Shown in pieces: positions 1 to 63,008 of a DNA stretch of 64,000 nucleotides. Source of the stretch: Chloranthus sessilifolius (lineage: Eukaryota; Streptophyta; Magnoliopsida; Chloranthales; Chloranthaceae); contig CM037598.1 of NCBI GenBank assembly GCA_021018995.1, forward strand, positions 50,731,185 to 50,795,184. The letters run 5' to 3'. Both the position numbers and the translations under genes were made by a program. The notes below the pieces were generated by a model, which made no database searches, was not told the origin of the DNA, and was given only the letters and a program-made list of their open reading frames with translations. Within the stretch, counting starts at the first letter, position 1. Each line of letters starts with the position of its first letter.

Positions 1-14
1 AGCGTACTAAGAAC

Positions 15-196
15 CGCTCAAGCGTAAATGTAATCTGGAGCCTACGCTCGAGCATGATTCGTAGGCTATTTTGGCTCGGGTCAATCTGCTCGAGCGTGAA
101 TTACAAGCTTATTCCTCTTAGGTGAAATACGCTCGAGTGTACCATGCTGTGTGCCACTGGAATCCGCTCTTGTGTAAGACACCCACACTCGAGTGT
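15..196 (+). repeat. CTCGAG palindrome cluster in element A U3
   Basis: Copies: CGCTCAAGCG (15-24), ACGCTCGAGC (44-53), GCTCGAGCGT (88-97), ACGCTCGAGTGT (129-140), CCGCTCTTGTGT (164-175) and the perfect 12-bp palindrome ACACTCGAGTGT (185-196). Spacing is irregular at about 30-45 bp. Seen directly; placement in U3 is inferred from distance to the LTR end. The cluster probably extends left of the window. Confidence 0.75.
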
Positions 197-688
197 AAGG
201 GCGTGCTTTTGGATTTTTTTAACCACTATGCCAGAAATGTGACACGCACACTCCGTGTTATACGAAGGGGTATGTAGTGAATACTTGTGACTAAGAAATG
301 TATCTGGCCTCGTGAATTAGGTGAGGGAACACGAATAAGAACATCTAGAAAAACGTGCTTAGAACCAAAAAGTGTGTGTGACACGACTTAAGGTAGGGAA
401 ACTGCCTTGCCACCTATATGATTCTCGAGTTCAAGTTTATGGTGCACTTATTGCATAAATGATATTCTTAGCAAATGATGCAACATTAGCAAACTTCTTA
501 TTTACCTATATGTGCATGCCTATGAACTTCTCGCATATAAGATTTAAATTCAGCATACATGTTTTACATGACACATGACACTGCATCTTAACCTCATGAT
601 ATTTGCTTTAACTTCATATTGTCCATACCTTTGATTTGTGTTAACACACCTTCGATGTGTATTCGTGTGTGATGTGTGTACATATGCA

Positions 689-905
689 ATGAGGAGTGGA
701 GTCTCCATGAGAGGGGTGGAGTTCCCATGATCACGGCTCTATGTTTCTAATACGGCCTGCTCAGTTCTCTAATACGAGATGCATTGCCATGCGAAGTGCT
801 CTGAGTGTGCTAGTTGTAAGGGGAGTGGAGTCTCCATGAGAGGGGTGGAGTCCCCGGGGTTATGGCCTTGTGTGCCTAATACGGACTGCTCAGTTCCCTA
901 ATATA
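689..905 (+). repeat. Two-copy tandem repeat with GGAG/CTCC stems in LTR A
   Basis: A block with GGAGTGGAGTCTCCATGAGA, GGGGTGGAGT, then TAATACGG-CTGCTCAGTT appears at about 690-780 and again at about 820-905. The copies differ at scattered bases. Each contains short inverted arms (GGAG...CTCC). Confidence 0.7.
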
Positions 906-1816
906 GGATACTTACACTAACACCATGTGATGTGATACGTGTTGTGTATCCAATGTGTAATTTGCTCAAACCCCAGTTATCCTCGGTATATGTGCTCGTG
1001 TCTCGTTTCTCATTGAATCATTCACCATGGACATGCATTTGATTTTATCTTTTGGCAACATTTTAACATCATGTATCTTGTGCACGATTTGATATTTGAA
1101 ATACAGCATCTACAGAATTCAATTTGTATTCGATACGTTATAGATAAGCATGAACTCTTTAACATTGTATTTTATTTCTGCATCAAGAAACATGAATTAG
1201 TTATGACAAGAATGTACTTAGTAATGTGGTTTTCCCTATTGAGCTTGGATGAAGCTCACTCCCGACTATACGTCACAACTGTAGGTGCTGAAGGTGAACC
1301 GGATCTAGTGTAAGAAGCGAACCCGGATTATCACCCTGCTGAGGAGGAGGAAGAGGAGCATCCGGAGTAGCATTTTCCCTAGAGTTGGGGAATTTTATTT
1401 GGGCTTTAAAATTTTGAGGAAAGAGAGAGAGAGAAACATTAAAGATATTTATTTTGTAAATAAATACTTGTATTTTGGGTCCATTGTTTAGATGAAGGTT
1501 AGCCTTCATCGGTGAACTGTAAATATTTACATTCTTTTTGGCATGGTGTAATCCTGATCAGGGGACTACAGATAGTTTAGATTGATCATATATGGCTAGT
1601 TAGATTTGCAACTAAATGTCTTTTATTATGTTATAGCTTTGCACTCACATTCCACTATGCTTATTTGGATTTCTTCACTTTCGCTATTAGACTTACAAAT
1701 TTAGTGAGGAAGTGAAGTGAGTTTTGGGATACCATAATGTCACTGTAGTTTGGATCTTATGAGCATGATCCGACGGCACGGGTTTTTATGGTAAGGAAAA
1801 CTCGGGCTATTACAGG

Positions 1817-1830
1817 TGGTATCTGAGCCC
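1817..1830 (+). other. Primer binding site, element A (tRNA-Met type)
   Basis: TGGTATCTGAGCCC lies 2 bp after the LTR end. It matches the usual plant tRNA-iMet PBS TGGTATCAGAGC with one A-to-T change. Confidence 0.85.
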
Positions 1831-2013
1831 AAGCTTTAGGTCCTTTGGGGACCCAAAGACAAGACCGAATGCCTATGAGGCTAAAGTCTTACTTGCAGAG
1901 CTATGATATAATAGGAGCAATAGCATTAGAATCTAATAGGACTTTAGGATTAGACTCCTAGAGTTGCATAATGTGAACCGGACGACTCGTTCATGAGACC
2001 ATCACAGGTCAAC

Positions 2014-3222
2014 ATGCCCCCACGAAGAGGAAGACCAAGGTTAGCCAATTTCGGAGGTGGGAACAGTGAGCAAGGCTTCGTCACGGAGCCGAACAACAAT
2101 CCACTTGGCAACAACAACAATGCCTCCCAAATGGATAACAATCTCGACAATGTTCTCGAAGTCGAGAGGAATGCTGGCACCAACCAGCAGTTACTGGAGA
2201 ATGTTGAAAACGTAGTGACACTACTTAAGGAAAGACTCCATCCATCGGGATTTTCCGAGTTTAGGAGGTTGAGACATCCGAGTATTTACGAGCAAGCTAA
2301 CCCAATGGAGGCCGAGAAATTGATGAACCAAGTGGAGAAAGTATTGCAGCGAGTTCATTATACAGAAGAAGAAAAGGTCAATTGGGCTTCGTTCCAACTA
2401 GAAGGGGAAGCAGACCCATGGTTGAAGTACATAGCAAGAACAAGGGCATCGGAAATGTCGTGGACTTGGGCCAAGTTTACTGACATATTCTATCAAAAAT
2501 ATTTCCCAACCATGGAGAGACGCTGAATGGAGATCCAATTTGCAAGCCTAGTGAAAGGGAAAATGAGCATTTAAGAATATGAGACCGAGTTTACCCATTT
2601 ATCTCGATTTGCACCAGCCCTTATTGCCACCGAATTGATGAAGGCACAGAAGTTTGAACATGGTCTCAAACAGGCCATCATGGGAAGGATATCCCTGTTT
2701 GAGGCGACGACATATGAGAGAATGATGAGGTTATCTCTGATTGCTGAATGTGACGTAGAGGAAGAGTTACATCAAGGGAGAGATTAAAAAGCAAGGATTA
2801 GAAGAGCACAATATCAAACATATAGTACTGATCAGGCCAGCAAAAGGCCAAAATACTTGATTCCATCACCAACACCATCAGTCCCTGCGACATCCTCTAA
2901 GTTTTTTATCTCGCCAGTTTACCACCTCTACCTCCAAGTCCTCCGAGGACTTTTTCTACACCCGGCCCGGCAACCTCAAATTTCACAAGGGCACCATCAA
3001 TGGCATCGTGTGTGGCTTCTTCCGCACCATCGTTCACATGTGCAAACTATGAAAAGCAACACAAGACGGAGGAATGCCGAAAGAATACCGGAGGTTATTT
3101 TAAGTGCGGCCAACTGGCACCACATTTGGGATTGTCCCCAAATGAAGGGAGTTACACCAAATGTGGGATTTACTCGACCCACCATTCAAGGACGAGCATA
3201 AGCAGCCTCGGCACATGACACC
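2014..3222 (+). pseudogene. gag: Element A gag (decayed)
   Basis: Gag forms the nucleocapsid-like particle and packages element RNA. I favour the ATG at 2014 (MPPRRGRPR, a typical chromovirus gag start); an in-frame ATG lies at 1993. The first open stretch ends at a TGA at 2524 after a retrotransposon-gag-like block containing WLKYIA and FYQKYFP. The same frame resumes with FASLVKGKMS and GLKQAIMGR-type residues, broken by further stops near 2572 and 2785. The zinc-knuckle region (CANYEKQHKTEEC, about 3035-3080) is in a different frame, so a frameshift lies upstream. The second knuckle is eroded. Certain as a gag relic; exact ends are approximate. Confidence 0.85.
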
Positions 3223-5743: not shown

Positions 5744-8183
5744 TGTAACGTCTCAAAATTTTGATCCATGAACAATTCGCCTTGGTGTCAAGCCTGACTG
5801 TTTGCACATCGAAGATCATGCCATAAGACATGGAGTAATGTATGTGGATTTAGACCTTATGTGGAGAAAGGAGTTTTAAATGTATTTGAACCATAGATGA
5901 GTGACATATACCTATGTAGTGGCTTAACATCTAAGCCTAACACTTAGTTATAAGGGCAATAAATAGCCTTAAAGGTTTTGCATTCAATATCCCTATTTCG
6001 TATGGTTAGAATTGATGAGGAGAGAAGAACCTAGAGCGATGAAGGCATGAGAGTTCGTGTATGATCCTTTCTTGAAGGCGAAGCTAAGGGATCACGATTG
6101 AAGAAGAATTACAGTTTCATTTAGTTAAGCCCTAGGCTGAACTGAAGACAAGGATAGAGGGAAACGGACTGGATTAAGGTATGGAATTTATGTGTGAGTT
6201 GTGGATTGTGTTAGATAGTGTTTCACACATATTATGATCAAAAAATTATAAGGAACGAGGATGGATTTGGGGAAAAACGGAGATGAATTGTGAAAACCCA
6301 ATATTCAAAGAAATCTATAAATTTTGATCGATCGATATTAACTTAAGATAGAAGAATACAATTTTTGAAGAAATTCGTTCGATCGAAATAAGATTCGATC
6401 GAATGAAATGTGTTTCGATCGATCGAGTCTCTCACTCAATCAGTCGAAATGTATATAACATGGATTTGGAAATTTTGCTATCCGGATTTGACCGATCAAA
6501 ATTTCTTTCAATCGATCGAATTTGAGATCCGATGGGTCAAATTAAAATCGTTCGATCGAGATTAAAGTGCCAAACTTTGAATCTGAGGGATTCGATCGAT
6601 CGAATTTAAAATTGTTCAATCGATTTCTTTTAAACTTGATCGAATATAAAATCGTTCGATCAATCGAATTTAAACTTGATCGAATTTAAAATCATTGGAT
6701 CGATCCGATCAGGATTTTGTTTTGTTTTGTTTGAGGGATTTTATATCTTCTGTTTCGCGTCATTTCTTACGTATGAACTGTGGTTTTACCTTGTTCAGGT
6801 TGAACGAATACGTGTGAGAGGTTGAGGCTAGTCTAGTGTAAGAAATCGCTTGTGACTTCGGGTCAAGGTAGGGAAATCTTTATATCATGTTTATTCGATG
6901 TCAACGACATGTGTGTTATGATATGATAAATTTTGTCAGCATCTTAGCATAAATGGTGTTAAGACCCAAATGTGAATGTGTTAGTGTACGTGTGTGATTT
7001 GAAGAATGCATTACAATGAAGAAAGCTCTCAAGTTGGGTTCAAGCAATGTGCAACTATGTGGAATCCTTCGTGATTCATTTCAATAAGTGTGAAAGATTT
7101 CATTTCATCTTTAGCTTTCAATTCTAATTATAATTAGCACATCACACGGTGATAAACTATAAGTTATGCACGATGATTTGAGATTTATATGTGAATACCC
7201 GACCGACGCGACAGTATAATCACGACAGACGCGGCAGGATATCCATGATCGATACGACGGGATATCCGTATACCCTTTGTTATCTTGTGTGATCTTGTGA
7301 AATCATACCGGCCAATGGTAAAATCTATTTTTGGCATAGGCGTCCACTTTGTTGGGACCTTGGGCACCCTATGCAAATGGTTCATATGAGCGACGATGGT
7401 GGGTATTCCATCGGGGACTCGAGGCTATCGCTACTTGAGTACTGATTTAAGTAAAATGTTTTAAGTTTCTTCTTTGTGTTGCGTGACTCAGTAGATGTGC
7501 ACATGATAAGCTTCCTCCAATAAGGAAATTTTTGTTTCATTTATTCATCTTGAGATGTGTACTAATAACTGCATTTGCTCAGTCTATTGCTTTTAAACTT
7601 GAGTTACATATAAGAAAAATCATGTTTTCATCAATTGTCATGAGATATATGTGCTTGATAAGAAATGCATGCTATCTTTTCCCTACTGAGCTTAGATGAA
7701 GCTCATTTCTTGACTATACGTCATAGGTACAAGTGAAGACTTATGCACGAAGGACCAAGACAAGGAGGACTCCGATTACGTGCCGTTGGAAGAGGAGCAA
7801 TAGCCTCATCCAGAGAATTGTTTCATTTGCGCAAGGCTCGAGTAGGTCCGGCCTTGGAAACTAAGTTAGAGTATGGTTTTGTCATGTTTGTAAAGAATAT
7901 AAGCTTTTAGAGATTCATTGTATATTTGTTCTGTGAACCATGTTTCGGTTATCGGTGGTTCTTTTCGGTTCTTTTACCCATTATCACTCGCATGGAATTA
8001 GAACCGTTATTTTGAGTTTTTGATATAGAATTGGAGAGTTCTTTTCTTTTCATTATGATAGTCATGTTAGTTAGTTATGGTTTCCACTTTGTGCATGATT
8101 ATACCAAGTGTTCCATTTGGGATTCGGCCTTAGCGTCGACCCGACGGCCTGGGTCTTGTGATTAGGAAATTCGGGCTGTCATA
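5744..8183 (+). repeat. Element B 5' LTR
   Basis: It begins TGTAACGTCTC and ends GGGCTGTCATA, probably TGTCACA originally. It contains the TCGATCGA palindrome array (6325-6715). Conserved block GTTGAACGAATACGTGTGAGAGG (shared with the 3' LTR) follows near 6800. A GAC-GACGCGAC rich patch lies at 7200-7280. About 280-330 bp near 7340-7675 are missing from the 3' LTR, which is shorter. No gene inside. Confidence 0.9.
6325..6715 (+). repeat. TCGATCGA palindrome array, element B 5' LTR
   Basis: About fifteen degenerate copies of TTCGATCGATCGAA, interleaved with A/T-rich linkers (ATTTAAAATCG). Examples at about 6327, 6382, 6413, 6590 and 6650. The perfect core is palindromic and contains CpG. Many copies differ by C-to-T or G-to-A changes (TCAATCGA, TTGATCGA). 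Confidence 0.88.
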
Positions 8184-12540: not shown

Positions 12541-13081
12541 GGGACGCAAAGTTATAAAGAAAAATGCCGAAATCGTTTGCATCATTCGAGAAAGAATTAA
12601 GACAGCTCAGAGTCAACAGAAGAGCTATGCTGATATCAGGAGAACAAGCATGTATTTTCATGTGGGAGATCACGTGTTTGTGAAAATTTCACCAATGAAG
12701 GGCGTAATGCATTTTGGAAAGCGTGGGAAGTAAAAATTTTGCTACATTGGACCGTTTGAGGTATTGGGAAGAGTTGGAGAAGTTGCATATAGGTTCGCTT
12801 TACCCCCACAACTCGATAGAGTACATGACGTATTTCACGTTTCCATGCTACAGAAATACATGAGGGATCTGACTAACATACTGGATGTGCCATCGATCGA
12901 AGTTTACAAGAATTTGACAGTCATAGAAGAATCAATGCAAATTTTAGACCAAACTGAACAAGTGTTGCACACAAAATGGATTCCCTTAGTGTTAGTCCAA
13001 TGGAAGAATCATTCTAAATCCGAAACTACTTGGGAGCGCGAAGCCGAGATTCGCAACCAGTACCCTTTATTATTTCAGTGA
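12541..13081 (+). pseudogene. pol: Element B integrase C-terminus and chromodomain
   Basis: The C-terminal GPY-type region (GDHVFVKISPMKGVMHF, then IGPFEVLGRVGEVAYRF with one stop at 12731) leads to the conserved VHDVFHVSMLQKY. It is followed by a chromodomain-like tail with LDQTEQVL, VLVQWKNHSKSETTWE and NQYPLLF, ending at TGA 13079-13081. Chromodomains of this type tether integration to marked chromatin and define the Tekay/CRM/Galadriel/Reina group. Confidence 0.88.
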
Positions 13082-13229
13082 ACGGGAAGAGAAAAGAAAT
13101 TGTAAAAGTCTTTTGTAAACCTAATGGCATGTAAATAACGTTATTAGTTAATGAAAGACTCATGAATTGGAAGTTTAAAGGCCAATAATCAAGAAGGAAA
13201 TTCAAAAACACAAATTTTAAGCGTTTCTA
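13082..13229 (+). other. Spacer after pol, element B
   Basis: Noncoding A-rich sequence between the pol stop and the internal palindrome array; nothing recognised. Confidence 0.5.
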
Positions 13230-13640
13230 TCAATTTCGATCGATCAAAATATTTTTTCAACCGATCGAATATGAATTTGATCGATCGATGTGTAAACCGA
13301 TAGATCAAAACCACCAAACAAAAAATGATTTTTTTGTACTTTAAAACATAAGAAATTCATTCGATCGAATTTGAAAACCGTTCGATCGAAATTAAATTCG
13401 TTCGATCGAATTAAAATTCGTTTGATCGAAATTAGTCAAGGCCAGGTGTAACCTGAGAAATTCTATAGATCGAAAGTCATTCGTTCGATCAAATTTTAGG
13501 GCTCAATCGATCAAAATTAAATTCATTCGATCAAAATCGAGGCCCTGTTTCGCTTAAGAAAATTTTGATCGATCAAAATTAAATTCGTTCGATCGAAACA
13601 GCGGTTCTGTTGTACTTAAGTCAAATTTGATCGATCGAAT
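13230..13640 (+). promoter_or_regulatory. Internal TCGATCGA array upstream of the accessory ORF
   Basis: A second array of the same TTCGATCGATCGAA motif as in the LTR, with about fourteen degenerate copies (for example near 13236, 13276, 13360, 13385, 13567, 13585, 13630). It is followed by GGGCTTTCTCTTAGGGTTTC, which looks like a plant 5' leader, and by the aORF start at 13890. Sequence facts are direct; promoter function is inference from position and from the LTR parallel. Confidence 0.75.
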
Positions 13641-13798
13641 CGCGTAGTATTTAACTAAAATGAACCTTTTTGGTTCAAAATTTTTTTAAAATTTTAGGGC
13701 TTTCTCTTAGGGTTTCGTGGGCTTCTTCTTGGAGATCGAAGAACCGATCATTTGCGAACGAATCCTTCGCGAGATCAAATCAAAACTTCTACAAAAAG

Positions 13799-13854
13799 GT
13801 AAAGCCGTAATTTTCTTTCAAAATCTCGCATTAAAATACACTTATTTTGTTTAG
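13799..13854 (+). other. Putative 5'-UTR intron of element B aORF
   Basis: Donor AAAAG|GTAAAGCC and acceptor TTTTGTTTAG|ATTC bracket a 56-bp T-rich stretch 35 bp before the ATG. Short for a plant intron, but E2's aORF has an equivalent intron at the same place. Unconfirmed. Confidence 0.4.
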
Positions 13855-13889
13855 ATTCTAAAGCAACCCTATATTTTAATTTGAAACCT

Positions 13890-15247
13890 ATGGCTCCTAA
13901 GACGAAGCAATCGTCTAAAACCCCTACGTCAAAGAAACCCAAAACTAAATCGGTTCTTCGCAACCACCATCAGACCCTCCACAACAACCGATACCCGCAC
14001 CACCATCTACCTCGCAGACACCACAACGCGAACAACCAAGTGAATGGTGGGCTGCCAAAGGGTTTGGCTATGAGGTTAAGATCGATCCGGCCTTATTTGA
14101 AACGCCTGACGTATTGGGTATAGACAATTAGGCTCTTGATTATTTAGGAAAGGCCGGATTTGATAACCATTTGAAACCTATTCATGAATACTACTACCCT
14201 CAATTTGTACGATTGTTCTACCAAAATATGTACAACGGGACAAATCCCAATACCCTTTGTACCAAAATTGATGGGAAAACCTACATTTTTACCCATAAGA
14301 TGGCTTGTAAAGCCTTAGAGTGTTTTGACAGCTATGGCCCTTGTATCGATCTATTACCCCCAAACCCCGGTGATATACCTTGCTCTATGATAGCAGCAAA
14401 GATGACTCGGGGTTGAGTTGCTTCTGGTTAGGCAATTAAACAAGTTGATTTACCGAGTTATATGTGGATGCTCAACACAATCTTTAAGTGCAACTTGTAG
14501 CCCATACGACATAAAACCGAGAGACTAGGAGTGATAGTGCAGGCGTTGTTCTCAGCGTTTGAGGGGCAGTGGCTTAATGCCACAACAGTAGTTTTTGAAG
14601 GCATGAAACACAGCAGAATGAAAATGTTCATTCCATATGCAGGCCTCATTTCTAGCATGCTGGAGGAGTATCCAGGGAGTGTTGCGCATATGATTTCACC
14701 ACGCGAGCCCAAGTCCTCGGATAATGTGGAGTTGTTTACCTTTAAGCATTAGAGAAAGACATACAGTCGGTTGAAACCACATTTTCAACGAGCACCACAA
14801 GTACCTCCTATTCCTCCCCCAACTCAAGAACAACCAATTCAGGGCGCTCCACAATCAGACGAGCATGTCAAAGATGCCCTATAGCATGAACAGCAAGCCC
14901 ATGACGTACCCTATTAGGATCAGCTAGAGATCATACCTCCGGCTTAGTACGCTCACATTCTCGTGCCTCCACCATATCAACAAGCTGCTGGCATGACCAT
15001 GGAGGGGTTAACAACCCTCATTGAAGAGAGCAACCGCCAATTGAGTTGTCAACTCGATTTTCACGAGCTGATATTAGAGGACACCATGCACTACATGTAT
15101 CCGACGGACTACCTCCAACGGATCACCATGATGCGTGCTAGGGTGTTCGACCCACAAGCAGATGGAGCCGATGAGGTGGATGGAACCGACGACAACGCTA
15201 GTGGAGCGGATGATCCTACCGGAATGGAGGGAGGGGCTGACATTTGA
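13890..15247 (+). pseudogene. Element B accessory ORF (aORF), decayed
   Basis: The ATG at 13890 starts a Lys-rich N-terminus (KKPKTK, nuclear-localisation-like). A frameshift near 13955 leads into a Pro/Gln-rich stretch and then a folded-looking domain: SEWWAAKGFGY (about 14039), YYPQFVRLFYQNM (14186), VIVQALFSAFEGQWLNA (14531) and TTVVFEGMKHS. A Pro/Gln-rich linker and an acidic tail (DGADEVDGTDDN) follow, ending at TGA 15245-15247. Stops at about 14129, 14414, 14429, 14498, 14750, 14882, 14915 and 14945 interrupt it. Intact length would be about 450 residues. The middle domain matches E2's accessory ORF (LFYQN and IFEGMK blocks). It resembles plant 'putative transposon protein' domains found in some Athila elements, but I cannot assign a function. 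Confidence 0.75.
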
Positions 15248-15774: not shown

Positions 15775-17929
15775 TGTAACGTCTCAAAATTTTGATCCGT
15801 TAATAATTCGCCTCGATGCGCATGCCTGACTGTTCGCACGTCTAAGATTGTGCCAAAAGACATGGAGTAGTGTTTGTGGATTTAGACCCTAGGTGGAGAA
15901 AGGAGTTTAAAATGTATTTGAACCATAGATGAGTGACATATACCTATGTCACTATGTAGTGGCATAACATCTAAGCCTAAGGCTTAGTTATAAGGGCAAT
16001 AAATAGCCTTAAAGGTTTTGCATTCAATAGCCTATTTCATATGATTAGAATTGATGAGGAGAGAAGGAGAACCTAGAGCATTGAAGGTGTGAGAGTTCGT
16101 GTATGATCCTTTCATGAAGGCGAAGCTAAGGGATCACGATTGAAGAAGAATTACAGTTTCGTTTTGTGAATCCCTAGGCTGAGCTGAAGACAAGGATAGA
16201 GGGAAACAAACTGGATTAAGGTATGGAATTTATGTGTGAGTTGTGGATTGTGTTAGATAGTGTTTCACACATATTATGATCAAAAAATTATAAGGAATGA
16301 GGATGGATTTGGGGAAAAACAGAGATGAAATGTGAAATCCAATATTCAAAGAAATCTGTAAATTTCAATCAATCAAAATTTGATTCGATCGATCGAAATT
16401 GACTTAAGATAGAAGAATACAATTTCTGAAGTAATTCGCTCGATCGAATAAGATTCGATCGAACAAAATGTGTTTCGATCGATCGAGTCTCACACTCGAT
16501 CGATCGAAATGTATGTAACACGGATTTGGAAATTTTGCTATCCGAATTCGACCGATCAAAATTTATTTCGATCGATCGAATTTGAGATCTAATTTATCGA
16601 ATTAAAATCATTCAATCGAGATTGAAGTGCCAAACTTTGAATTTGAGGGCTTCGATTGATCGAATTTAAAATCGTTCAATCGAACTGTGTGCCAGATGTT
16701 TTACTTCTGTTGGATTCGACCGATCAAGATAAAATCGATCGATCAAATTTGGATTTCGATCGATGGAAATGGGGATTCGATCGATCAAAATTTCCAAATT
16801 TAGGATTCTATTCTATTTTGTCTTATATCTTCTGTTTCACGTCATTTCTGACATATGAACTGTGGTTTTACCTTGTTCAGGTTGAACGAATACGTGTGAG
16901 AGGTTGAGGCTAGTCCAGTGTAAGAAATCGCTTGCGACTTCGAGTCGAGGTAGGGAAATCTTTATATCATATTTATTTGATGTCAATGACATGTGTGTTA
17001 TGATATGATAAATTTTGTCAGCATCTTGCATAAATGGTGTTAAGACCCAATGTGAATGTTTTAGTTTACGTATGTGATTTGATAAATGCATTATAATGAG
17101 GAAACCTCTCAAGTTGTGTTCTAGCAATGTGCGACAATGTGGAATTCTTCGTGATTCATTTCGATAAGTGTGAAAGATTGCGTTTCATCTTTAGCTTTCA
17201 AATATAATTATAATTAGCACATCACACAGTGATAAACTATAAGTTCTACACGATGATTTGAGGTTTATATGTGAATACTCGACCGACACGGCAGGATATT
17301 CGTGACCGGTACAACGGGATATCCGTACACCCTTTGTAATCTTCTGTGATCTTGTGAAATCATACTGGCCAACGATAAAATTTTTGTTCGGCACAAGCTA
17401 TTAGATTTTCCCTACTGAGCTTAGATGAAGCTCATTCCTCGACTATACGTCACGGGTACAGGTGAAGACTTAAGCATGGAGGACCAAGACAAGGAGAACT
17501 CGGATCACATGTCGTTGGAAGACGAGAAAGAGCCTCATCCAGAAAATTGTTTCATTTCTGCAAGGCCCGGGTAGGTCCAGCCTTGGAAACTAAGTTAGAG
17601 TATGGTTTTGTCATGTTTGTAAAGAATATAAGCTTTTGGAGATTCATTGTATATTTGTTTTATGAACCATGTTTCGGTAAGGGATGGCCCTTACCTGTGG
17701 TTCTTTTCGGTTCTTTTACCCATGTGCACTCGCATGGAATTAGAACCGTTATTTTGAGTTTTTGATATAGAATTGGAGAGTTCTTTTCTTTTCTTTATGA
17801 TAGTCATGTTAGTTAGTTACGATTTCCACTTTGTTTTCGCTTTGCGCATGATTATGCCAAGTGCTCCGTTCGAGGTTCGGCCTTAGGGTCGACCAGACGG
17901 CCTGGATCTCGCAGTTAGGAAATCTGGGC
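15775..17929 (+). repeat. Element B 3' LTR (last few bases missing)
   Basis: It begins TGTAACGTCTC and matches the 5' LTR, including the palindrome array at about 16365-16800. It lacks a segment corresponding to about 7340-7675 of the 5' LTR. It ends at GGGCT, six bases short of the LTR terminus, and continues directly into Athila 3' sequence. No gene inside. Confidence 0.9.
16365..16800 (+). repeat. TCGATCGA palindrome array, element B 3' LTR
   Basis: Same motif as at 6325-6715 with individually different decay (for example 16386, 16439, 16477, 16497, 16566, 16735, 16756, 16774). Confidence 0.88.
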
Positions 17930-18218
17930 TCCCTACCAAAGTGGCATTTAAATTTAAGTTTTAAATATTTAATGTTTCCATGTTTGCTAGGGACTAGCAA
18001 AACTCAAGTTTGGGGGTGTAATCAGTCACATAATTTACCATTTTATTACCCTTAACTTAGTGATGCTAGGCCATAGTTTGCGGCTAACGAGTTACTGATG
18101 TGCATATATTAGAGATAAATAGTAAATTAGAGCCTAAGTGATAATCTTTGTCAAAATGAACTCAAAAAGAAATAAGAAAAATGATTGAGCGAAAAAAATG
18201 ATTTGCCACTACTAAAAG
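17930..18218 (+). mobile_element. E0: relic of an Athila 3' end
   Basis: AAGTGGCATTTAAATTTAAG, GCTAGGGACTAGCAAA and the PPT CTCAAGTTTGGGGG (18003-18016) are the conserved tail of Athila elements. An LTR start TGTAATCAGTCACA follows at 18017. The LTR is cut at 18218 where E2's 3' LTR begins, so E2 inserted into it. The rest of E0 is not visible in the window. Confidence 0.8.
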
Positions 18219-26275: not shown

Positions 26276-26287
26276 CTATATATAGAG
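26276..26287 (+). promoter_or_regulatory. TATA box of solo LTR
   Basis: CTATATATAGAG, about 215 bp downstream of the palindrome array. Confidence 0.75.
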
Positions 26288-42532: not shown

Positions 42533-42534
42533 GG

Positions 42535-42914: not shown

Positions 42915-43520
42915 GTGATCCCGTGCCTCGCGCTGCTGTTGCCAGGTACTCGCAAAGCTATATTTTCTCGTGCGGTAAACATTCAATCTCGTGAGAAGTG
43001 CAGTCGCCAAGAAGAAAGATGCCTTGCGAGGACAGATTTAGAAGCCCTATGCATCTCGCAAGGTCATTCGCGGAGCTGATTCTATAATTAAGTCACCGAG
43101 AGGGCAGGTGGATCACTCGCACAGTTGAAGCAAAGAACCTCGCGAAGAAAATATATTCAGTGACTCTCAGAAGTTCGCTCGTGAGGCTCTCGCGAAGTAC
43201 AATGTGCTTGATTTCTGTTCTTCGCACAGCTCCATGTTACTGCCAAGGTAAAGCCTCATGAGGTCATTATTAGGCTTTAGCAGGTGCCTTTTGCTCAAGA
43301 AGCTCTCGCGTAGTATAACATGTGTGATTCCTAATTGGCGCACAGCTCATTGTCATGAAAAAGGGGTAACCTCACGAGGATTCATCTTTTGTTTCCTTCA
43401 AGCAATTCACTCACGCGGCTCTCACGAGGCAACACAAGTCATTATCTAGCCCCACGAGATAGCCTAAAGTTGACTCGTGAGTGTAAAATATATGCCTTTT
43501 AGCCTCTCGAGAAAGTAAAA
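42915..43520 (-). promoter_or_regulatory. Internal CGCGAG array in E2, before its aORF
   Basis: Around twenty degenerate copies: CCTCGCGCTG (42926), TACTCGCAAAG (42946), CTTGCGAGG (43023), ATCTCGCAAGG (43053), CTCGCACAG (43113), CCTCGCGAAG (43129), TCTCGCGAAG (43188) and CTCTCGCGTAG (43303). Same motif as the E2 LTR. Promoter role is inferred from the leader, putative intron and aORF that follow on the minus strand. Confidence 0.75.
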
Positions 43521-47460: not shown

Positions 47461-49029
47461 CTGTAATTTCTCAGGTGTTGCAATGGACAGAACTGACTCA
47501 ACATGCTCAACAGCAAAAACCTTTTTAGATAACTATACCCTTTTCTTTCTTTTCTATGTACAAAGGCCCCTCAAAAATTTAGAATAGGTAGGGACCTATT
47601 TTATAGCATCAAGCAAGGGCAAATTGATCTTGACCTGCTTGAAGGTCTCCATCATTTCCTCCATCTGAGCATTTCCCTTATCAAAAGAAGATGGGCCAGC
47701 ATGTGCATGAGGAAATGGCAGTTGTGGGACTGTTAGTGCCATAGCTGCATGCCTAACCACATCATGGTCAAATTTTTATCTTTTTCTTTTTTCTTCATTT
47801 ATTATTTACTGTTGGGGCTCAACATCAGCTCCTTTATTTTGCCCTTGCTGATCAACAATAGGGGATGACTTTTCTGGTTCTTCAAAACTCACATTTCTTT
47901 CATTTTCACTCTCTATGACCTCATCAGCTGCTCTGCCCACTGAATTTTCAACCACCCTGCCACTCCATAGGGTAGTGATTGCATTAGCCTCATCATGAGT
48001 AGAAGATACTTCTCCAATCATGTACTGCCCTTTTGGATTGGCGAAGGGTTGACTACGCAATTTCCCCTCCTCTCTCATGCTCAAAGCATTATAGATTTGA
48101 CTCAGCTGGTCCTCTATTTTTTTAATGCCTTGCCCATGAGAATTCACAGTTTGGACTAAGTTCTCGAAATTCTGCATAGATGCCAACATTTGCTCTTCAA
48201 AGGAAAAGGATCTGGGTTGTTGTGGGGGCAGGACCAACTAATTGGGTTGTGGGGGCAGGACCAACTAATTGGGTTGTGGGGCTGGCAACTAAAAATTCTG
48301 CCTTGGTGGATAACCTGGGTTAAATTGGTGATGAGGTCTATATGGAGTTGCCAACTGCTGCTACTGCGGCTGAGGGTATATATCTTGTCTCCACCTCAAA
48401 TTTGGGTGGTTTCTCCATGTGTACCCAGTAGGTTACTACCCATATACTTGGGTAGCATTGGCATGCTCCATAACTAAATCAGGTAATTGGTTGGCTGATG
48501 GACAATCTTGGAGTGAATGTATGGGAGATTGGCATATCAAACATGCCTCTTCCACTTGTGCAACCATCCTAGGCTGCATCTGATTCATTAATTTGTCAAA
48601 CTTTAAACTCAAATTTTCTACCTTCCTTTTCAAATCACACCATAACTTCATACATTCTACCTCTAGGAGTGGACTCTTTAACCAATTTAGCTGGGGTCTG
48701 GCTGTCATTGTGAGACAGTGACTCCTGCTGTATAAAATTTTCTCCTATGATGTCAAACAACTCCAAAGCCTCATCAGCTGTCATGTGGAGGTAACTACCA
48801 CCACATGAGGCATCCACAATATCCCTACTTTTGGGATAAATTCCTTGGTAAAATACTTGCACAAGTTGCCACTATGGAATTTGATGGTGGGGACATTATT
48901 ATAGCATCTCTTGAAACCTCTCCCATGCCTCATAAAAATCTTTAGTTGAGGATTGAGTAAATGACAATATGTTTGTCATTATCTGGCTGGTTTTATTTAT
49001 GGGAAAAAATTTAGCCAGAAATTAGCTTT
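47461..49029 (-). pseudogene. gag: E2 gag, C-terminal part
   Basis: Continues gag left of E3: FLAKFFP-type residues at the junction, YLHMTADEALELFDIIGENF, a CCHC knuckle (CLICQSPIHSLQDC, about 48560-48519) and a Gln/Pro-rich tract with a 27-bp tandem duplication (48223-48276). The linker towards protease is broken near 47800. The region matches E1 gag throughout. Confidence 0.87.
48223..48276 (-). repeat. 27-bp tandem duplication in E2 gag
   Basis: GGGCAGGACCAACTAATTGG and the flanking GGTTGTGG occur twice in direct tandem, an in-frame repeat of nine residues. E1 has one copy. Confidence 0.8.
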
Positions 49030-49459
49030 GGAGGTGCTGAGCACTGAAATATACCACTTTCTACCCCTTAACCTGACCTATGATGGACCTTTGAGCATGT
49101 TAATAATATCTTTTAAGTGTGATTTTACAAATAACAACAAAATAAGAGCTTAATGTTGCAATCCATGATTTTGAAGCTAAGAAGAAGGAATTTTGTGTTT
49201 AGCAGTGGAGCTGATGGATTTATTGAAAAGGCACCATGGTGGTTCACACCATTGGGGCTTTTTAGCACGCTTTGGGGGCCTTGAAGACCGGGTGAGAGAG
49301 ATCGGTGAAGCCCAAAGGTTAACACGGTGCTATGCAGTAATACAACATTTTGTGTTTGTAGCAAGGCAACACCTTGGATGGAAGACAGCAGCAAATCAGC
49401 ACCTCAAGGCATTCTATGCGAATAGCTGCAAAGCAATTCAAGTGGCATATTATAGCTAC

Positions 49460-50000
49460 AACATTAATGCACTCGAGTACTTTAAGTGTTGAAGATCATC
49501 CACTCGAGTTGATGATGGAAGCCCATGAGCAGCACAGCTACAAACTTGAAGAATTCGAGCAGTTTAGAGGGTCGGTGTAGCCACTCGAGGTGTTTAAATG
49601 CAGCTTAAAATGAACTACACGAGCTATTCTTTGTTGGAACTATAGCACGTGAGTGGTTATATAGCTGAAAGCAACCCCACGAGTGAATTGTAGAGTTGTT
49701 ATGCGCTGAAAATAGACTCCACGAGGGGTTGTTTTGAACTCCACGAGCTGTTATGTGATAAAATTGAACCTGCCGTAACCTATTGAATGGTTGTTTAAAC
49801 CTGCCGTAACCTATCAAATGGTTGTTTGAACCCGTCGAGAACCTGTCGAGAGGTTGTGGTGCTGAAAATGAACCTGTCGAGCTCCTATTATAACCTGTCA
49901 AAAACATGTCGAATGTATTCCTGAAGGCCATTTAACCTGTTGAACAGTTGCCTGAACCTGTCGAGATTGAAGTTCTGAAGCTCCAACCTATCGAGGCACA
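49460..50000 (+). repeat. Mosaic CTCGAG / CCACGAG / CCTGTCGAG array in E3 U3
   Basis: Three motif zones in order: CACTCGAG near 49471, 49500 and 49581; CCACGAG near 49677, 49719 and 49742; then AACCTGTCGAG or decayed forms near 49810-49990. The core CGAG is common to all. Confidence 0.8.
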
Positions 50001-50288
50001 GGTTCCAGCCATCTATTTCACACTTTAGGGACATTTTGGGGATTCCAATGCTTCTAGGGCACACATCTCAGGGATTTATTTTAGGTTCCATTAACAAATA
50101 TCAGTGGCCGACAGGGGCATTTTTAAGAGTTGCAAGAACACATCAGCTGGGCACAAATTTTTGTACATGGGACAGCAGTCCAGATGTGATTTTCCTTGGC
50201 CAAAATGAAGACACCTCAGCTGTGCATAACAGAACTGAGTCCTCTACTCTCTGATTGGCTGCAACTCAAGGAACATGGATCGATGCAT

Positions 50289-50300
50289 ACATATAAATAC
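50289..50300 (+). promoter_or_regulatory. TATA box, E3 5' LTR
   Basis: ACATATAAATAC, about 290 bp after the palindrome array; absent from E3's 3' LTR. Confidence 0.75.
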
Positions 50301-51615
50301 CCATCTATTCTACTGTAATTTCTCAGCAAGGAAAGTAGGAACAAAGGAATAGCCTAAGCTCTCCTTAGCTCATTTAGGTTTAGTTTTAGGTTTTATTTTT
50401 CCCTTTTCTCTTCCCCCTTCTCTCTCTAATCCAGCCTGTTGGATTAGATCTAGGTAGCAGCTCAGATATGTTTTCTAATTATAAATAAGTCTGTAAATTT
50501 ATTGTGAAGAGCTTCGAATCATGCACAGACTATTTGGTCAATGAACTACTATTTTAAAGTCCCATTAGATCTATAATTTTTCAATTCAATTGCTTTATAT
50601 TTTTGTAGATCTGATGCACCTATGGTTGCCTGAGCTTGTAGCCTTGCAACCATAGTGCTTGCAATAATTTTCATGTTCTAATCTTCATCCTCACTGGTAG
50701 AATAAATCTCTAGGATGATCTGTGACCATTCAAGTGGATAGATCATACCCTTAGGACAAATCCAGAACTAAAGATGAACTTGGATCCTTCTTCTTTGCAC
50801 TTATGCTTATAGCCAAGTGAAATATTATAGCAGATCCGACTCTTGCTCTGATTTCCATATCTATTTTCAGTGAAGAGATCTGGAATTATGTAGAGATTGC
50901 AGCCTTGTGAGCTAGGGCATTGTAGCTGTTTGAAGCAATGCCAAGTTGAGTTTAAATCCCTAAATAATCTATGATTTCTAGTGGTTCTCACATGATCTAC
51001 ATAGATTATTTGATCCTATGGTTGTAAGTGCCTATAGCCTTACAAGCATAGTGGCTGCAATGGTTTTTACGTTTCAATTTGAACCTTGGGATTGGATGAT
51101 GTATATAGGATGATCTGTGACCATTTAAGTGAACGGCCCATACCCTTAAGATCAGTTCAAGCCTTTGGTTTGATTTGAATTCTCCTACCTTGCACTTGAG
51201 CTTGTAGCCAAGTGAAGGATAGCTGCAAATTTATATGTCTTGATCTAATTCGTAATGAGAACCAGTCCCTAGCTGCCTATTTCTCACCATTTTTACATTT
51301 TATTTCACCATCCATCTTCTTCAATCTTTTAGATTTAGTTTTATATTTTAGTTTTATAAATTAGATCTAGTGATACCCGAAAAGCTCTCTTTCTTCTTAG
51401 AATTGCCAGATCTGGAGGTCTACTATACACCTTCTTGGTTTAGATCACTACTCCCTATGGGACAAACTCTTATTTAAAACTTGCTACAAAGGGCCCTGTA
51501 TCTTACAGGCCTAGGATATTTTAGATGTGCTTAATCCACCCTCTGTTTTACTTTAATTTTATTTTCTTTCTTTTATTTCATAATAATCAGCACACTAAAA
51601 TCCCCTAATAAGTTG

Positions 51616-51634
51616 TTGGCGCTGCTGCTGGGGA
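51616..51634 (+). other. Primer binding site, E3 (tRNA-Asp type)
   Basis: TTGGCGCTGCTGCTGGGGA; two changes from TTGGCGCCGTTGCCGGGGA. Confidence 0.9.
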
Positions 51635-54600: not shown

Positions 54601-54829
54601 CTCTGTTTTAGCATGTTGCATGAGTATTAGCTTATTTTATTGGAGAAGATTGGGGGTACCTTCACTGAAAACCCTTAGGAGACTCCACTCCTCCACCTAG
54701 GGGTTTAAAAGGCTTGATGCATGTGCCAAATGCACCTGTGTTCCCTATGAAAGTGGCATTTAATTTCATAGGTTAGTTGTTTTAAATATTACTTTGCTCG
54801 AGGACTAGCAAAGGTTAGGTTTGAGGGTG
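51635..54829 (+). other. E3 internal region: noncoding, with two PPT-like motifs
   Basis: Strongly T-rich; no domain in any frame. An internal PPT-like motif AGGTTTGGGGG (53228-53238) is flanked by AACATTGAGGAAAATGTT (53204-53221) and TGGCAGGTGTGCCA (53241-53254). The conserved Athila tail (CTCCACTCCTCCACCTAGGG, near 54685) and terminal PPT (AGGTTTGAGGGTG, to 54829) follow. The 3' half matches the E1 and E2 3' regions in the opposite orientation. Confidence 0.8.
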
Positions 54830-56063
54830 TGTTGAGCACTGAAATATACCACTTTCTACCCCTTAACCTGACCTACGATGGACCTTTGAGTATGTTAATA
54901 ATGTCTTTTAAGTGTTTTTTTACATAAAACAATAAAATAAGAGCTTAATGCCAGATCATTGTAAGTTTTATTTGGTCAATTAAATGCTATTTTAAAGTCC
55001 CATTAGATCTATAATTTTTCAATTCAATTGCTTTAGATTTTTGCAGATCTGATGCACCTATGGTTGCCTAGGCTTGTAGCCTTGCAACCATCGTGCTTGC
55101 AGTAATTTTCATGTTCTAATCTTCATCCTCACTGCTGGAATAAATCTCTAGGATGATCTATGTCAATTCAAGTGGACAGATCATACCCTTAGGACAAATC
55201 CAGAAGTAAAGATGAACTTAGATCCTTCTTCTTTGCACTTGTGCTTGTAGCCAAGTGAAATATTGTAGCAGAACCAACTCTTGCTATGATTTCCATATCT
55301 ATTTTCTGTGAAGAGATCTGAAATTATGCAGAGATTGCATCCTTGTGAGCTAGGGCATTGCAGCTGTTTGAAGCAATGCCCAACCGAGTTTAAATACCCA
55401 AATAATCTGTGATTTCTAGTGGTTCTCACATGATCTACATAGATTATTTAATCCTATGGTTGTAAGTGCTTGTAACCTTACAAGCATAGTGGCTGCAATG
55501 GTTTTTACGTTTCAATTTGAACCTTGGGATTGGATGAAGTCTATAGGATGATTTGTGACCATTTAAGTGGGCAGTCCATACCCTTAATATCAGTTCAAGC
55601 CTTAAGTTTGATTTGAATTCTCCTACCTTGCACTTGAGCTTGTAGCCAAGTGAAGGACAGCTGCAAATTCATATGTCTCGATCTAATTTGTAATGAGAAC
55701 CAGTCCCGAGCTGCCTATTTCTCACCATTTTTACATTTTATTTCACCATCCATCTTCTTCAATCTTTTAGATTTAGTTTTATATTTCGGTTTGATAAATT
55801 AGATTTAGTGACACCCGAAAAGCTCTCTTTCTTTTTAGAATTTCTAGATCTATAGCCAGATCTGGAGGTCTACTATACACCTTCTAGGTTTAGATCACTA
55901 CTCCCTGTGGGACAAACTCTTACTTATTTAAAACTTGCTACAGAGGACCCTGTATCTTGCATGTCTAGGATATTTTAGATGTGCTAAATCCACCCTCTGT
56001 TTATTTTGATTTTATTTTCTTTCTTTTATTTCATAATAATCAGCACACTAAAATCCCCCAATA
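54830..56063 (+). repeat. E3 3' LTR, with a 1.34-kb internal deletion
   Basis: TGTTGAGCACTG to CCCCCAATA, 1234 bp. It matches the 5' LTR on both sides of a gap at about 54950, corresponding to 5' LTR about 49145-50525. The palindrome array and TATA box are gone. Stem-loops remain at 55153-55184 and 55548-55579. Confidence 0.9.
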
Positions 56064-56068
56064 GGTGG

Positions 56069-56520
56069 TCACTCCATGTCTGGATGCTATTGGCTGGGAG
56101 CTTAGAGAGCCAGGTGTTGGCTTTGTCCTTTAGGGAAAAGGGAAAAAGTCCCAGTTTGGTGGCTTCACGTCCCAGGCCAGCAATATTGAATGTGGTGCAA
56201 AGTGCCAAAAATTGGTCTATGTGCTTGTAAGGATCCTCCTTACTGAGCCCATGAAAAGATGGCAGCATGTTAATGGTGGAGGACTTGATTTCATAATTTC
56301 CCTCAACTGAAGGGAATTGTATGCAAAAGGGAGATGTGTAATCCCCAGGTGCATTGTATTCCTTCAGAGTTCTTTACCTCTCCGCCATAGCACTTGGCTC
56401 CGTTTCAACAGTAGGGCCTTGTGTGGTGTTTTTTGGTCTAAGGACCCTTTCAACCTCAGGATTTTGGAGGTTCTAACTTAGGGTTAAGGGACCTTCTTCC
56501 AAGCATACACCCACAAGATC
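56069..56520 (-). pseudogene. gag: E2 gag, N-terminal part
   Basis: On the minus strand, a block matching E1's gag start (CMLGR) near 56500 leads through frame-broken sequence to MLPSFHGLSKEDPYKHID, FPFSLKDKANTWL and NSIQTWSDH (56268-56069), where E3 cuts in. It continues at 49029. Confidence 0.85.
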
Positions 56521-59345: not shown

Positions 59346-60576
59346 CTTTTTTTTAGATTTTTGTTTTGATTGATTTTATTTTATTTTTGGGATTTTATAT
59401 AGGACAAGAAATTTCTTCACCGTTGGATCAATAGGGTGCTTCGTCTGGGGCCTTAAAACTCCCTTTTTAGGTGGTGTTTACACCCTTGATGCCTCCCCTG
59501 ATGGGATTTCGATGCACCTTGAAAGAGTCAAAGGAAGACCTTTGATCAATGTAAGGGAACAGAAATCTACGCATCAACCCGATCCCTCGGAAGGGTCAAT
59601 AAGAAGGTGACCTCTCTTAACCGGCGAGGGCGTTTTGGGTGTCAATGATGTGGGAATTATCGAGGATACTAAAATTGCTAAGTGGGGGGCTCGGGGATAG
59701 TTAAAAAAGGCCTCAGATTCGGGTTGCTTGAGCTAAAACAGACTAGCGTATATATTATATACACTAGGCTAAAATTCTGGAGATTTGGCTTAGCGTGTAT
59801 ATTATACACGCTAGGCTAAATCTGGGAAATTTTTACTTCGCGGGTATATTGGACAGCAACAGCAAACCCGAGTTGGTCTATATTTTTTGGGTTTTTTGGA
59901 AGCAGTGCTTCCGGGGACTATTTTTCTTATTATCGGGTCCCTCCTTACCGCGCCTAAAGGATACAAGGCCGATTCTGTTCAACTAACATACTCCCTAAGG
60001 GTGTTAAGGCTTTGAGCAGTTCGATCACCCACTCGATATACCTCTGGCACAAGTGCCTTCTCAGATACTAGATGGGGTGGATCCTTTCGAGATCATCACC
60101 TCTAGGGCTGCCAATCTATCGGGAACCGGGACGGGTGTACCCCTCCTAAAATCTACCTGCGCAAAATTGAATTAAGTCCCCCTCTTGCTTCAATTTTAAG
60201 GGAGTTTGCTTAAGTTCAAAAACGGGCGGTCACAATCCCGTGCCGCCTCTAAGGGCCGGCGTCCACTATTGGAATATGATCTATACTATCAAGTAACTTG
60301 CCAAATGGCTAAGGTGTGTAAATACATAATTGGAAATGCTCAAGTAGGCCCACCAAACGGCTAAAGTGTGTAAATGACAAAATCGTAGGGTTGAGTAAAA
60401 GGTGAGCAACCAAGCCCGCCAATCGGCTAAGTCGGTAAATGATAGAATCGTAGGGGTAAGTAAAACAAATGCGGAATCATAGGGGTAAGTAATCAAAAAT
60501 GGATAAAAATAGTTGGTGAAAAGAAAAAAACATGCAACAAATGAGCCAAAACTTTAAGGAAAAGTTCTACAAGCTA
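59346..60576 (-). other. Ogre-like 5' leader with two palindromes
   Basis: Noncoding leader between PBS and gag on the minus strand. Two copies of the 23-bp palindrome lie at 59744-59766 and 59791-59813. I see no gene. Confidence 0.55.
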
Positions 60577-60594: not shown

Positions 60595-61302
60595 TCTGTG
60601 CAACTGTGGACCTTGCAGGTTTGTCGCGACGATGCGCACTCTCTAAAAAATGGAGTCACCACCCGGAGCTTTTGGTGACCCGAGATATCTTAAAAATCAA
60701 TACGTAAGCACCAGAGTGTGAAAATATCACTCCCATTTACCGGTCTTTGCCAAAGGCTCTTGGGTAGGGGCTTCAGTTATCGATTGGGAATGTGTTAGCC
60801 ACCCGATCAACTTGTTCGTAAGCGATCTCTACTATGGTCAAATTAAAAAATAAAATAATATAAAGAAAGGCACTTCCTCTTATCCGAAGGCCCTCCGATA
60901 CTATTTGAGTCCCCCACCCTTACCAAAATTTTGGCGGCGTAACGGCTCAAATTAAAGGATAGAGGAAAAGAAAAGAAGGTAGAGGAATAGAGGGGAGAGC
61001 TAGAGCTCTCGGGCCCTTATAGCACCGATGTGGACCTTCACGTTGATGCGCTTCTAGTGAACTTTCCGATAGAAAATGGGCTAAGGAATGGGTTTGAACC
61101 TTCAAAGCTTGGAAGATAGAAGGTAGGAGAAGGCTAAGGCCTAGTTCTAGCTAAATCTAAGGATTTGATGATGGAAAATAGGATCTAGAAGGGTGAAAAC
61201 AATTCTGAAATTTTTGAGGTTTAGTGCTCAAAAGGAAAGAGGAAACTCTCTAGGATTTTCTCTTTTGAAAATTTTCAAGCCCTTAAGCAAGGGGGGGTGG
61301 CT

Positions 61303-61316
61303 CTCTATTTATAGAG
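61303..61316 (-). promoter_or_regulatory. TATA box, Ogre-like LTR
   Basis: Minus strand CTCTATAAATAGAG. Confidence 0.75.
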
Positions 61317-61748
61317 TTCGATGGGATTAGTGCAGGGTTAAAGAGCTAATTGGGATAGCAATTAGGTCATAGGGATCTAAGGTTTTCTAGGTTTTTGGAA
61401 GCTTAGATAGGTGGAAAATGGGTTTAATAGTAGATGATAGGGTGGGGCTTTAAATGGCTAAAGGTTTACAAATAGGATTAATGGGGTGCAACAGTCCTAA
61501 AGAAACTCACCCTGGACTTTGGGGTGGTCAACAAGTCAAACGCCAAATTCAAAATCTAGACATTTTCCCAAAAAACACTATTCCTAAGCCTAGCTTGTAT
61601 ATTATACACACTAGGCTTGGGAACAGTGTTCCCTGAGAAAATAAGGAATTCTGGGGCCTGTTCTGAATCTCAATTCTAAAAGGAAGAAGCCAATTTTGTC
61701 GAGCATGAATAATATGCCCACTAAGCCAATTTTGGTTAAAAATTGGCC

Positions 61749-61771
61749 TAGCGTGTATAATATACACGCTA
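61749..61771. repeat. 23-bp palindrome in Ogre-like U3
   Basis: Perfect 11-bp arms TAGCGTGTATA and TATACACGCTA around one base. A second, slightly decayed copy is at 61591-61613 and a poorer one at about 61699-61721. Confidence 0.9.
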
Positions 61772-62135
61772 GTGTAATTTCCTATATTTCTGCACAATTT
61801 TCAAATTGCCATAACTTTTGGTATGCAACTCGAATTAAGACAATTCTTAGCCCGTTGGAAAGCTAGGACCATCCTCTTTCCAATGGTATAGGCCTTAGAT
61901 CTAGCAGGGGTCTAAGAAAATTTTGGTATCCTCTTTCTATCCACAACTTAGGAGGGTTGGAACTAGGTCCGGGAAGGGTTCCATGGGTTAGGGTTGATTC
62001 CTAAGGGTCTGAGAAAGGTTCCTAATGGTCTTAGGAATATTTATAAGGGGTTGGGAGATACTTTTTGAAGCTCAGGGGTATGCCTTTCTCGAAGTATGTG
62101 TCGATCGAGCCTTGGGCCGAATTTGTGTATTTACA

Positions 62136-62150
62136 GATGCCCCACTTTGG
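62136..62150 (-). other. Polypurine tract, Ogre-like element
   Basis: Minus strand CCAAAGTGGGGCATC immediately before the LTR start TGTAAATAC. Confidence 0.75.
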
Positions 62151-62711
62151 TATCCGATCACTAGTGATCGTATGCCAAAGAAAGAGATATTCGACGAGGC
62201 CTAAGGCAACACTCACAACTCTACTAAATTCAAAGTGAACCTCAAACATCATGAAAGTAATAGGAACAACTAAATGGAGAGTGACATAAGCCCAACACTT
62301 AAAAAAATGTGCGTAACTCAAGAGTACCGAAAGCCCAATACCTGAAAAACCATGATGGTGTATTCGAAAATACATGATATTTGAGATTCATTTCGAACAA
62401 GACTACCCCCTGAGTAGGAGGTTGATCATCCCATACTTAAAGATTAGCGTAAAGCAATGACGCAAAGATCCACAGTTTGTTCCCAATCTCATGAGGCATT
62501 GATTGCCCCATTTGATTGGCCACGGCTCCCCCCACGCGAAGTAATCCAAATTTTTGGGTGAACCCAACGATCCCGAAGTTAATTTAGCACAACTACCCGA
62601 GCGAAGTGAATATTGATGTCACAAAACTTTTTGGGAGTGTGTGCCACTTTTGAGATAGTAAACTTGTCACCATCCTTTCTTTTTCTTCCTCTTTTCTTTA
62701 TTTTTTTTTGT
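62151..62711 (-). other. Ogre-like 3' internal region
   Basis: Noncoding sequence with Tat/Ogre character by position; no domain found in either strand. Confidence 0.45.
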
Positions 62712-62737
62712 TTATATATATATATACATATATATAT
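62712..62737. repeat. (TA)n microsatellite
   Basis: TTATATATATATATACATATATATAT-type run, one interruption. Confidence 0.9.
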
Positions 62738-62842
62738 TGGGTTTATATATTATCATATGAGAGTCTAGCATCTCATGCGCATAATATGCTTGCCAGGCTT
62801 AACCTGGGTAAAAAGAACAGTCGCATGGAGGAAAACATAAAC

Positions 62843-63008
62843 CTCGCGCATATATCATACATGCTAGGCCAAATCCTGAGAGAATAAGCTTAGCGTATAT
62901 ATTAAACACGCTAGGGCAAATCGGGGAGAAAATAAGCCTAGCGTGTATATTATACACGCTAGGCCATTTCTTGGAAAAATAAGCCTAGCTTGTATATTAT
63001 ACACGCTA
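62843..63008. repeat. Tandem array of the 23-bp palindrome, about 48-bp period
   Basis: Four units: a decayed copy at 62843-62865, then 62891-62913, 62939-62961 and 62986-63008. Each palindrome is followed by GGCCA or GGGCAAA and preceded by AATAAGC. The last two have near-perfect arms. On the plus strand a T-rich region with possible splice sites follows. Confidence 0.88.

Follow-up and report, generated by a model that had tools for sequence, protein, structure and literature searches.

Family-specific CpG motif arrays in LTR retrotransposons of Chloranthus sessilifolius as candidate docking sites for an element-encoded protein

The window analyzed here, a 64,000-nucleotide stretch of the Chloranthus sessilifolius genome (contig C15, positions 50731185-50795184 of the 2.17 Gb assembly), contains long terminal repeat (LTR) retrotransposons with gag, reverse transcriptase (RT) and integrase, as seen by self-comparison and profile search. 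The LTRs of its elements A, B, D, E1, E2, F and G carry dense, family-specific arrays of a CpG-bearing motif, mapped with position weight matrices (PWMs) that were learned without a symmetry constraint and used at a threshold of 3.2 hits per shuffled window. In B and E2, a second array of the same motif lies in the non-coding interval between pol and an accessory open reading frame (ORF). We propose that the arrays may be docking sites on both promoters of an element, with the accessory protein as the leading candidate for the docking factor, and give this reading a probability of about 0.45.

One element with this two-place arrangement is B, on the + strand, whose LTRs (5744-8177 and 15775-17930) are 85-86% identical by self-comparison. 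Its motif, ATTCGATCGATCGAAT, forms an array in the 5′ LTR (6320-6715; 11 PWM hits in 6001-7000) and another in the 3′ LTR (16365-16800). The pol region ends in a chromodomain (12920-13081; PF00385, 25.9 bits, cut-off 25.1) and is followed by the internal array (13236-13650; 15 PWM hits in 13001-14000), which beyond the motif has no similarity to the LTR array, and then by a stop-broken accessory ORF that weakly resembles PF20167 (13890-15247). In E2, on the - strand, E1 separates the 3′ LTR into two parts (18214-20325, with an array at 19953-20325, and 37048-37700, with an array at 37048-37400). The internal array of E2 (about 42920-43510; 9 + 3 hits of the E2 PWM in 42501-43500) lies between the end of pol and a broken PF20167-like ORF (41514-42532, ATG at 42532). 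Elsewhere in the genome, L114, another B element, has 18 sites between the end of pol and its accessory ORF, a D element (L116) has 10 sites 3′ of integrase, and an A element (L115) has a weak cluster of 2 sites after pol. In a de novo array test, the positive stretches of B, E2 and D exceeded their shuffles and that of A did not; none of the four pol control stretches did so.

The motif appears to be all that the two places share. When it was masked in B, D and E2, none of six comparisons of an LTR array with an internal array (four within one element, two between elements) gave a match at E 1e-3, while both homologous controls matched; in D, the two arrays failed to match even without masking. 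In the majority of the B, D and F arrays, the sites are also spaced with the turn of the helix. In 18 arrays tested for R at 10.5 bp, the value was significant in 7 of the 8 B, D and F arrays (p ≤0.008), including the 5′ LTR array (p 0.008), internal array (p 0.0035) and 3′ LTR array (0/2000 placements) of the window B, the D array (p 0.004) and the F array, where gaps of 31, 21 and 11 repeat (R 0.94). The L116 array gave p 0.127, and the E2 internal array p 0.0185. A family-specific putative binding site is thus well supported, both because the B and E2 motifs recur in two places without other shared sequence and because all but one of the 8 B, D and F arrays keep a helical spacing.

A similar arrangement was seen ahead of PF20167 ORFs sampled from the whole genome. 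A PF20167 search gave 13,856 first-look candidates, and the 150 of them that were scored were all above the cut-off. In seven of eight loci picked from these 150, a CpG-motif array lies upstream (0/40 shuffles each), with ACGGACGTCCGT in four, CCTCGCGAGG in two, TGTTGATCGATCA in one and no array in one. On another contig (C1), a ACGGACGTCCGT pair lies at most 1.5 kb upstream in 8 of 14 listed PF20167 hits and downstream in none (chance about 0.0004 each); since the pattern was derived from PF20167 loci, this describes a fixed position in one family, not an independent family. The gapped ACGGACGTCCGT pattern has 1921 matches in the genome and its reversed control none. With allowed gaps of 1-30, the first 50 listed pairs are 20-23 bp (37), 33 bp (1) and 40 bp (12) apart, and those at 20-23 bp include several unrelated spacers. 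Three of the four ACGGACGTCCGT loci follow a stretch that we take to be copia RNase H-like; the one stretch tested had no Pfam or NCBIfam profile match.

That each family has an array of its own, as the initial annotation had proposed, held in copies fetched genome-wide from the same assembly with queries placed beside the arrays and not within them. Each search listed at least 40 hits, and we sampled 30 copies of B, 30 of D, 12 of E1, 9 of G, 15 of A (the window's included), 10 of E2 and 3 of F. The array was kept in 30/30 copies of B (2-12 TCGATCGA per 520 bp), CTCGAG in 15/15 copies of A, at least 6 sites in 28/30 copies of D, at least 4 sites in 10/11 of E2 (window included) and at least two CTCGCG/CGCGAG in 14/14 of E1 (both window LTRs included). 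The G array is weak outside the window: strict site counts in ten copies were 3, 0, 1, 3, 1, 0, 3, 1, 1 and 5 (the last being the window), with at least 1 in 8/10, and all ten have at least two half-sites at no more than 1 mismatch, which a single full palindrome already yields. Five A copies (L087, L089, L091, L094 and L100) have a higher-order unit of about 127 bp with four CTCGAG sites (gaps of about 20, 29, 42 and 36). In the spacing test this four-site unit dominates the A arrays, and 7 bp is their best-fitting period. One A copy (L092) is down to two sites, beside an apparent nested insertion; its positions 1-300 and the array of B copy L031 probably hold nested elements with other palindromes (AAAATCGATCGATCGATTTT and CTCGCTCGAGCGAG). 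Exchange of motifs between families was considered for these foreign palindromes and rejected, as the sequence reading points to nested insertions.

In nine B LTR pairs, 185 of 364 array CpGs are conserved, 147 show a deamination change and 32 a change of another kind; the rest of the array differs at 323/3264 positions. In the flank of these pairs, 39/79 CpGs differ by deamination and 109/2398 other positions differ. Because CpGs are lost at about the same rate within the arrays as beside them, we infer that the arrays are renewed in active lineages. The nine pairs gave no support to the expectation that younger copies would have better motifs (motif count against age, Spearman 0.14, p 0.73).

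The motifs are less uniform than the initial annotation had assumed. It described palindromic symmetry as common to all families and suggested a family-specific dimer site. In a test with 1000 column shuffles, the observed symmetry was reached by none for A, B and G, by 43 for D (borderline), by 410 for E1 and by 540 for E2; A, B and G are symmetric, D (AACCTATCGAAA) and E1/E2 (CTCGCGnAG) are not. The D 12-mer AACCTATCGAAA occurs 6.4 times per copy forward and 0.0 times reverse, and D sites in general occur in both orientations (382 forward, 109 reverse). The proposed excess of CpG palindromes over shuffles was found in B, whose 30 copies contain 63 palindromes 14 nt long vs. a shuffled mean of 3.4 and a maximum of 8 in 30 shuffles (the 63 are not independent, because the copies are homologous), and is lacking in D, which has fewer 8-mers than its shuffles (5 vs. 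12.8 expected). Since the D and E motifs have no symmetry, the logic shared by the families is a family-specific CpG motif rather than a palindrome, and a dimer site in all families is unsupported; the family-specific site itself is well supported by the recurrence of the motif in two non-coding places and its helical spacing. Motif lengths range from 9 to 29 nt across the families.

Of the motif strings first proposed, counted as exact matches, CTCGAG occurs 19 times in the window (4 in 1-210) and TTCGATCGAA 7 times, CCTATCGATAGG is absent, and CTCGCGAG, assigned to E1 and E2, is found twice, at 19992 and 20217, both in E2 and none in the E1 ranges. Models derived from the copies gave a longer motif for B, the ATTCGATCGATCGAAT above, and TACGCTCGAGCGTA for A. 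A position upstream of a TATA box, also part of that annotation, holds for D, E1, F and G, with TATAWAW 217 bp downstream of the array in D, 170 and 187 bp in E1, 302 bp in F and 278 bp in G; A and both window B LTRs have no downstream box, and the first in E2 is at 1024 bp. Among the copies, TATAWAW is downstream of the array in 10/30 of B (within 400 bp) and 30/30 of D (within 320 bp). Arrays also occur away from the LTR promoters, in internal clusters at 13236-13650, about 42920-43510, 27560-28110 and 59744-59850.

The explanation that we favor is that the sites of each array would together be bound, as double-stranded DNA, by one sequence-specific protein. B and E2 carry such a cluster twice, as A and D probably do, once in the U3 of the LTR, ahead of the gag-pol transcript, and once between pol and the accessory ORF, ahead of a putative promoter of the accessory gene's own, and one factor could reach both transcription units. 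The accessory protein, which in B and E2 is PF20167-like, would be the likeliest such factor and might act as an activator or anti-silencer, after the example of VANC in VANDAL transposons. Of the roles first suggested for the site, either an enhancer or a self/non-self tag may apply, but the presence of the second array ahead of the accessory ORF would seem to shift weight towards a cis/trans system encoded by the element. In a wider and more tentative form of this proposal, several LTR lineages (chromovirus-like, Athila-like and probably copia) might carry a selfish pair, a fast-evolving PF20167-type protein and a matching array on both promoters, each family activating or protecting itself alone. 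F and other non-autonomous relatives would keep the array only and be driven by a partner's protein; F has no internal array in the PWM map, and its internal region has no open frame of more than 151 amino acids (aa).

A number of results weigh against the accessory protein or against paired arrays. No PF20167 score of these elements reaches the curated cut-off of 45 bits: 31.2 for E2 (E 2.6e-7), 20.3 for L114 and 14.7 for the window B (E 0.03, in one of four scanned pieces). Neither the four open pieces 3′ of the array in L116 nor the two pieces in L115 match PF20167, and for this reason the accessory ORF of L115 was called by eye. A structure model of the accessory protein shows no DNA-binding fold (three-row alignment, pLDDT 38; the model was not used). 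The internal array of A consists of 2 sites that the de novo test missed, and since masking took out 20-60% of the letters, the masked comparisons could miss weak homology. Helical spacing is absent from 5/5 A and 4/4 E LTR arrays, and for the B internal arrays a period of 20.5-20.75 bp is a better fit than one of 10.5 bp; the B arrays in this test are partly homologous, and tandem duplication can also produce regular spacing. Lastly, the eight PF20167 loci amount to three motif families, because four share one motif and two another, and one is without an array.

Parts of this architecture are known. Sirevirus RM boxes are high-copy, symmetrical CpG motifs, specific to the element and upstream of the LTR promoter, and were reported as Sirevirus-specific among the Ty1/copia elements analyzed; of the 79 copies in the linker, 77 precede the ENV gene, and the four elements without ENV have none (Bousios 2010, PMC2829016). 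As in Sireviruses, a second cluster lies ahead of an extra ORF in B, E2 and L114; A is weak in this respect, and the D array has no recognized ORF. The hosts here are Ty3/gypsy elements, in contrast, and the D and E motifs are asymmetric. The Sirevirus CGG-CCG signature is absent from the A, B, D, E and G motifs but present in the ACGGACGTCCGT arrays, which resemble GTCGGACGTCCGAC of the Sirevirus Usier (PMC2829016). Most of the two-location architecture was thus already described for Sireviruses in 2010; the present data add Ty3/gypsy elements as hosts, the asymmetric motifs, the helical spacing and the link to PF20167. We found no published report of motif arrays of this sort in Ty3/gypsy elements in the open-licence literature, as far as its text was available.

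As a functional model, the best analogy is VANC of Arabidopsis VANDAL transposons, an element-encoded protein paired with short, tandem, family-specific non-coding motifs that differ between related elements (PMC5735166, PMC10398659). The arrays here are likewise family-specific and non-coding, but VANDALs are Mutator-like DNA transposons and not LTR retrotransposons, and VANC binding and demethylation have been shown in Arabidopsis, whereas a protein docking at our arrays is predicted. In sunflower, an Athila accessory ORF has similarity to PF20167 and a predicted nuclear location, and its authors mention the VANDAL parallel; the available portion of that paper mentions no cis arrays for the Athila or Tekay accessory ORFs, and the Tekay one is 5′ whereas that of B is 3′ (PMC11728184).

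Another element-encoded protein, TnpA of the CACTA DNA transposon En/Spm, binds repeated subterminal 12-bp family motifs and has an anti-methylation role; its motifs serve transposition too.

It is possible, if less likely, that the arrays are enhancers bound by transcription factors of the host (stress, cell cycle), with different factors recruited by different elements and the second array serving to express the accessory gene in those cells too. Such factors would account for one motif in two places, fit the TATA boxes that lie downstream of the arrays in D, E1, F and G, and find a parallel in Sirevirus boxes, which matched mainly sites of stress-related factors (Bousios 2010, PMC2829016). 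The different motifs of most families, their lengths of 9-29 nt and the position ahead of PF20167 ORFs are, however, easier to reconcile with a co-evolving factor of the element. A role of the arrays as RNA, with 3′ U3 palindromes folding into hairpins for packaging or small-RNA pathways, is much harder to sustain. The B and G arrays do form much more stable folds than their shuffles (z -4.2 and -7.8), and the title of a later paper names palindromic structures of Sirevirus LTRs in the host epigenetic response (Bousios 2016), but perfect palindromes fold well whatever their purpose, and the helical spacing in B, D and F points to duplex DNA. Hairpins as a property of all arrays are not supported, D, E1 and F showing no clear excess of folding (z -1.5, -0.8 and -1.9). 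Least probable are neutral tandem or slippage repeats of short CpG-rich units, inherited with the family and functionless, since, although slippage can grow both the higher-order repeat of A and the 20-bp units of B, the same motif occurs in two places without other detected homology and ahead of PF20167 ORFs, and the arrays are present despite the fast decay of their CpGs after insertion.

The remaining features of the window fill in the picture of these families. A and B are chromovirus-like Ty3/gypsy elements, and E1 has RT 5′ of integrase, the Ty3 order, and an integrase piece whose best relatives, where named, are proteins of plants; D, E and F we take to be Athila-like, and G, from its presumed primer site, Ogre/Tat-like. 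A is truncated at the window start and interrupted by B, and its truncated LTR has part of the array at 15-196 on the + strand (exact CTCGAG sites at 47, 89, 132 and 188; 5 PWM hits in 1-500). The D array (25540-26080, +; 18 PWM hits in 25501-26500) belongs to an LTR for which the window shows no partner. E1, on the - strand within the LTR of E2, has a 3′ LTR (20326-23055, array 22130-22770) 88% identical to its 5′ LTR (34333-37047, array 36120-36760), and a remnant of an internal array at 27560-28110, with 5 E1-PWM hits in 27501-28000 and 3 sites by the E2 PWM, too few for the spacing test. In E2, a perfect 27-bp tandem repeat of 2.3 copies lies in the gag-pol region (48219-48281), and 3′ of the PF20167-like ORF are a Pro/Thr-rich 257-aa frame (40718-41491, -) and a charged 104-aa frame (39496-39810, -), which may belong to a single long accessory protein or be additional genes.

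The F array, absent from the earlier list, is recognized by the D model. It lies in the U3 (49470-49990; 8 D-PWM hits) of the 5′ LTR (49040-51616, +, approximate start) and is of a D-like, AACCTGTCGAG type; by eye, three motif types stand there in blocks (CTCGAG, CCACGAG and AACCTGTCGAG). From the 3′ LTR (54832-56069, +, approximate start) about 1.37 kb including the U3 array is gone, with 54815-54950 corresponding to 49022-49155 and 54969-56069 to 50531-51616, which suggests a rearranged or recombined element. The idea of F as an array-less family, based on the LTR sequence that starts at 50515 and 54952 and on three like copies, was dropped when the array was found in U3 upstream of 50530. 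The G LTR (60597-63020, -) has 29-nt odd palindromes at 62830-63010 and 61590-61770, with TATAAATAG about 278 bp downstream, and motif copies (2 PWM hits) lie in the internal leader (59744-59850, -), as do two hits at a like place (973 and 1022) of another G element, L117. The internal region of L117 also has 17 D-type sites (2535-3049 in element orientation), probably a nested LTR. For the accessory protein, a search for a relative of solved structure found none (best E 0.23), and homologue searches gave none for the E2 piece and one for the L114 ORF. Rfam and tRNA scans gave no matches.

The function of accessory ORFs in plant retrotransposons is described as unknown in the sunflower study (PMC11728184). 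If our proposal is true, a matching cis motif ahead of both transcription units would be a concrete target for the accessory protein and would explain how related families are controlled separately within one genome. It would also extend a VANC-like strategy to the LTR elements that fill large plant genomes.

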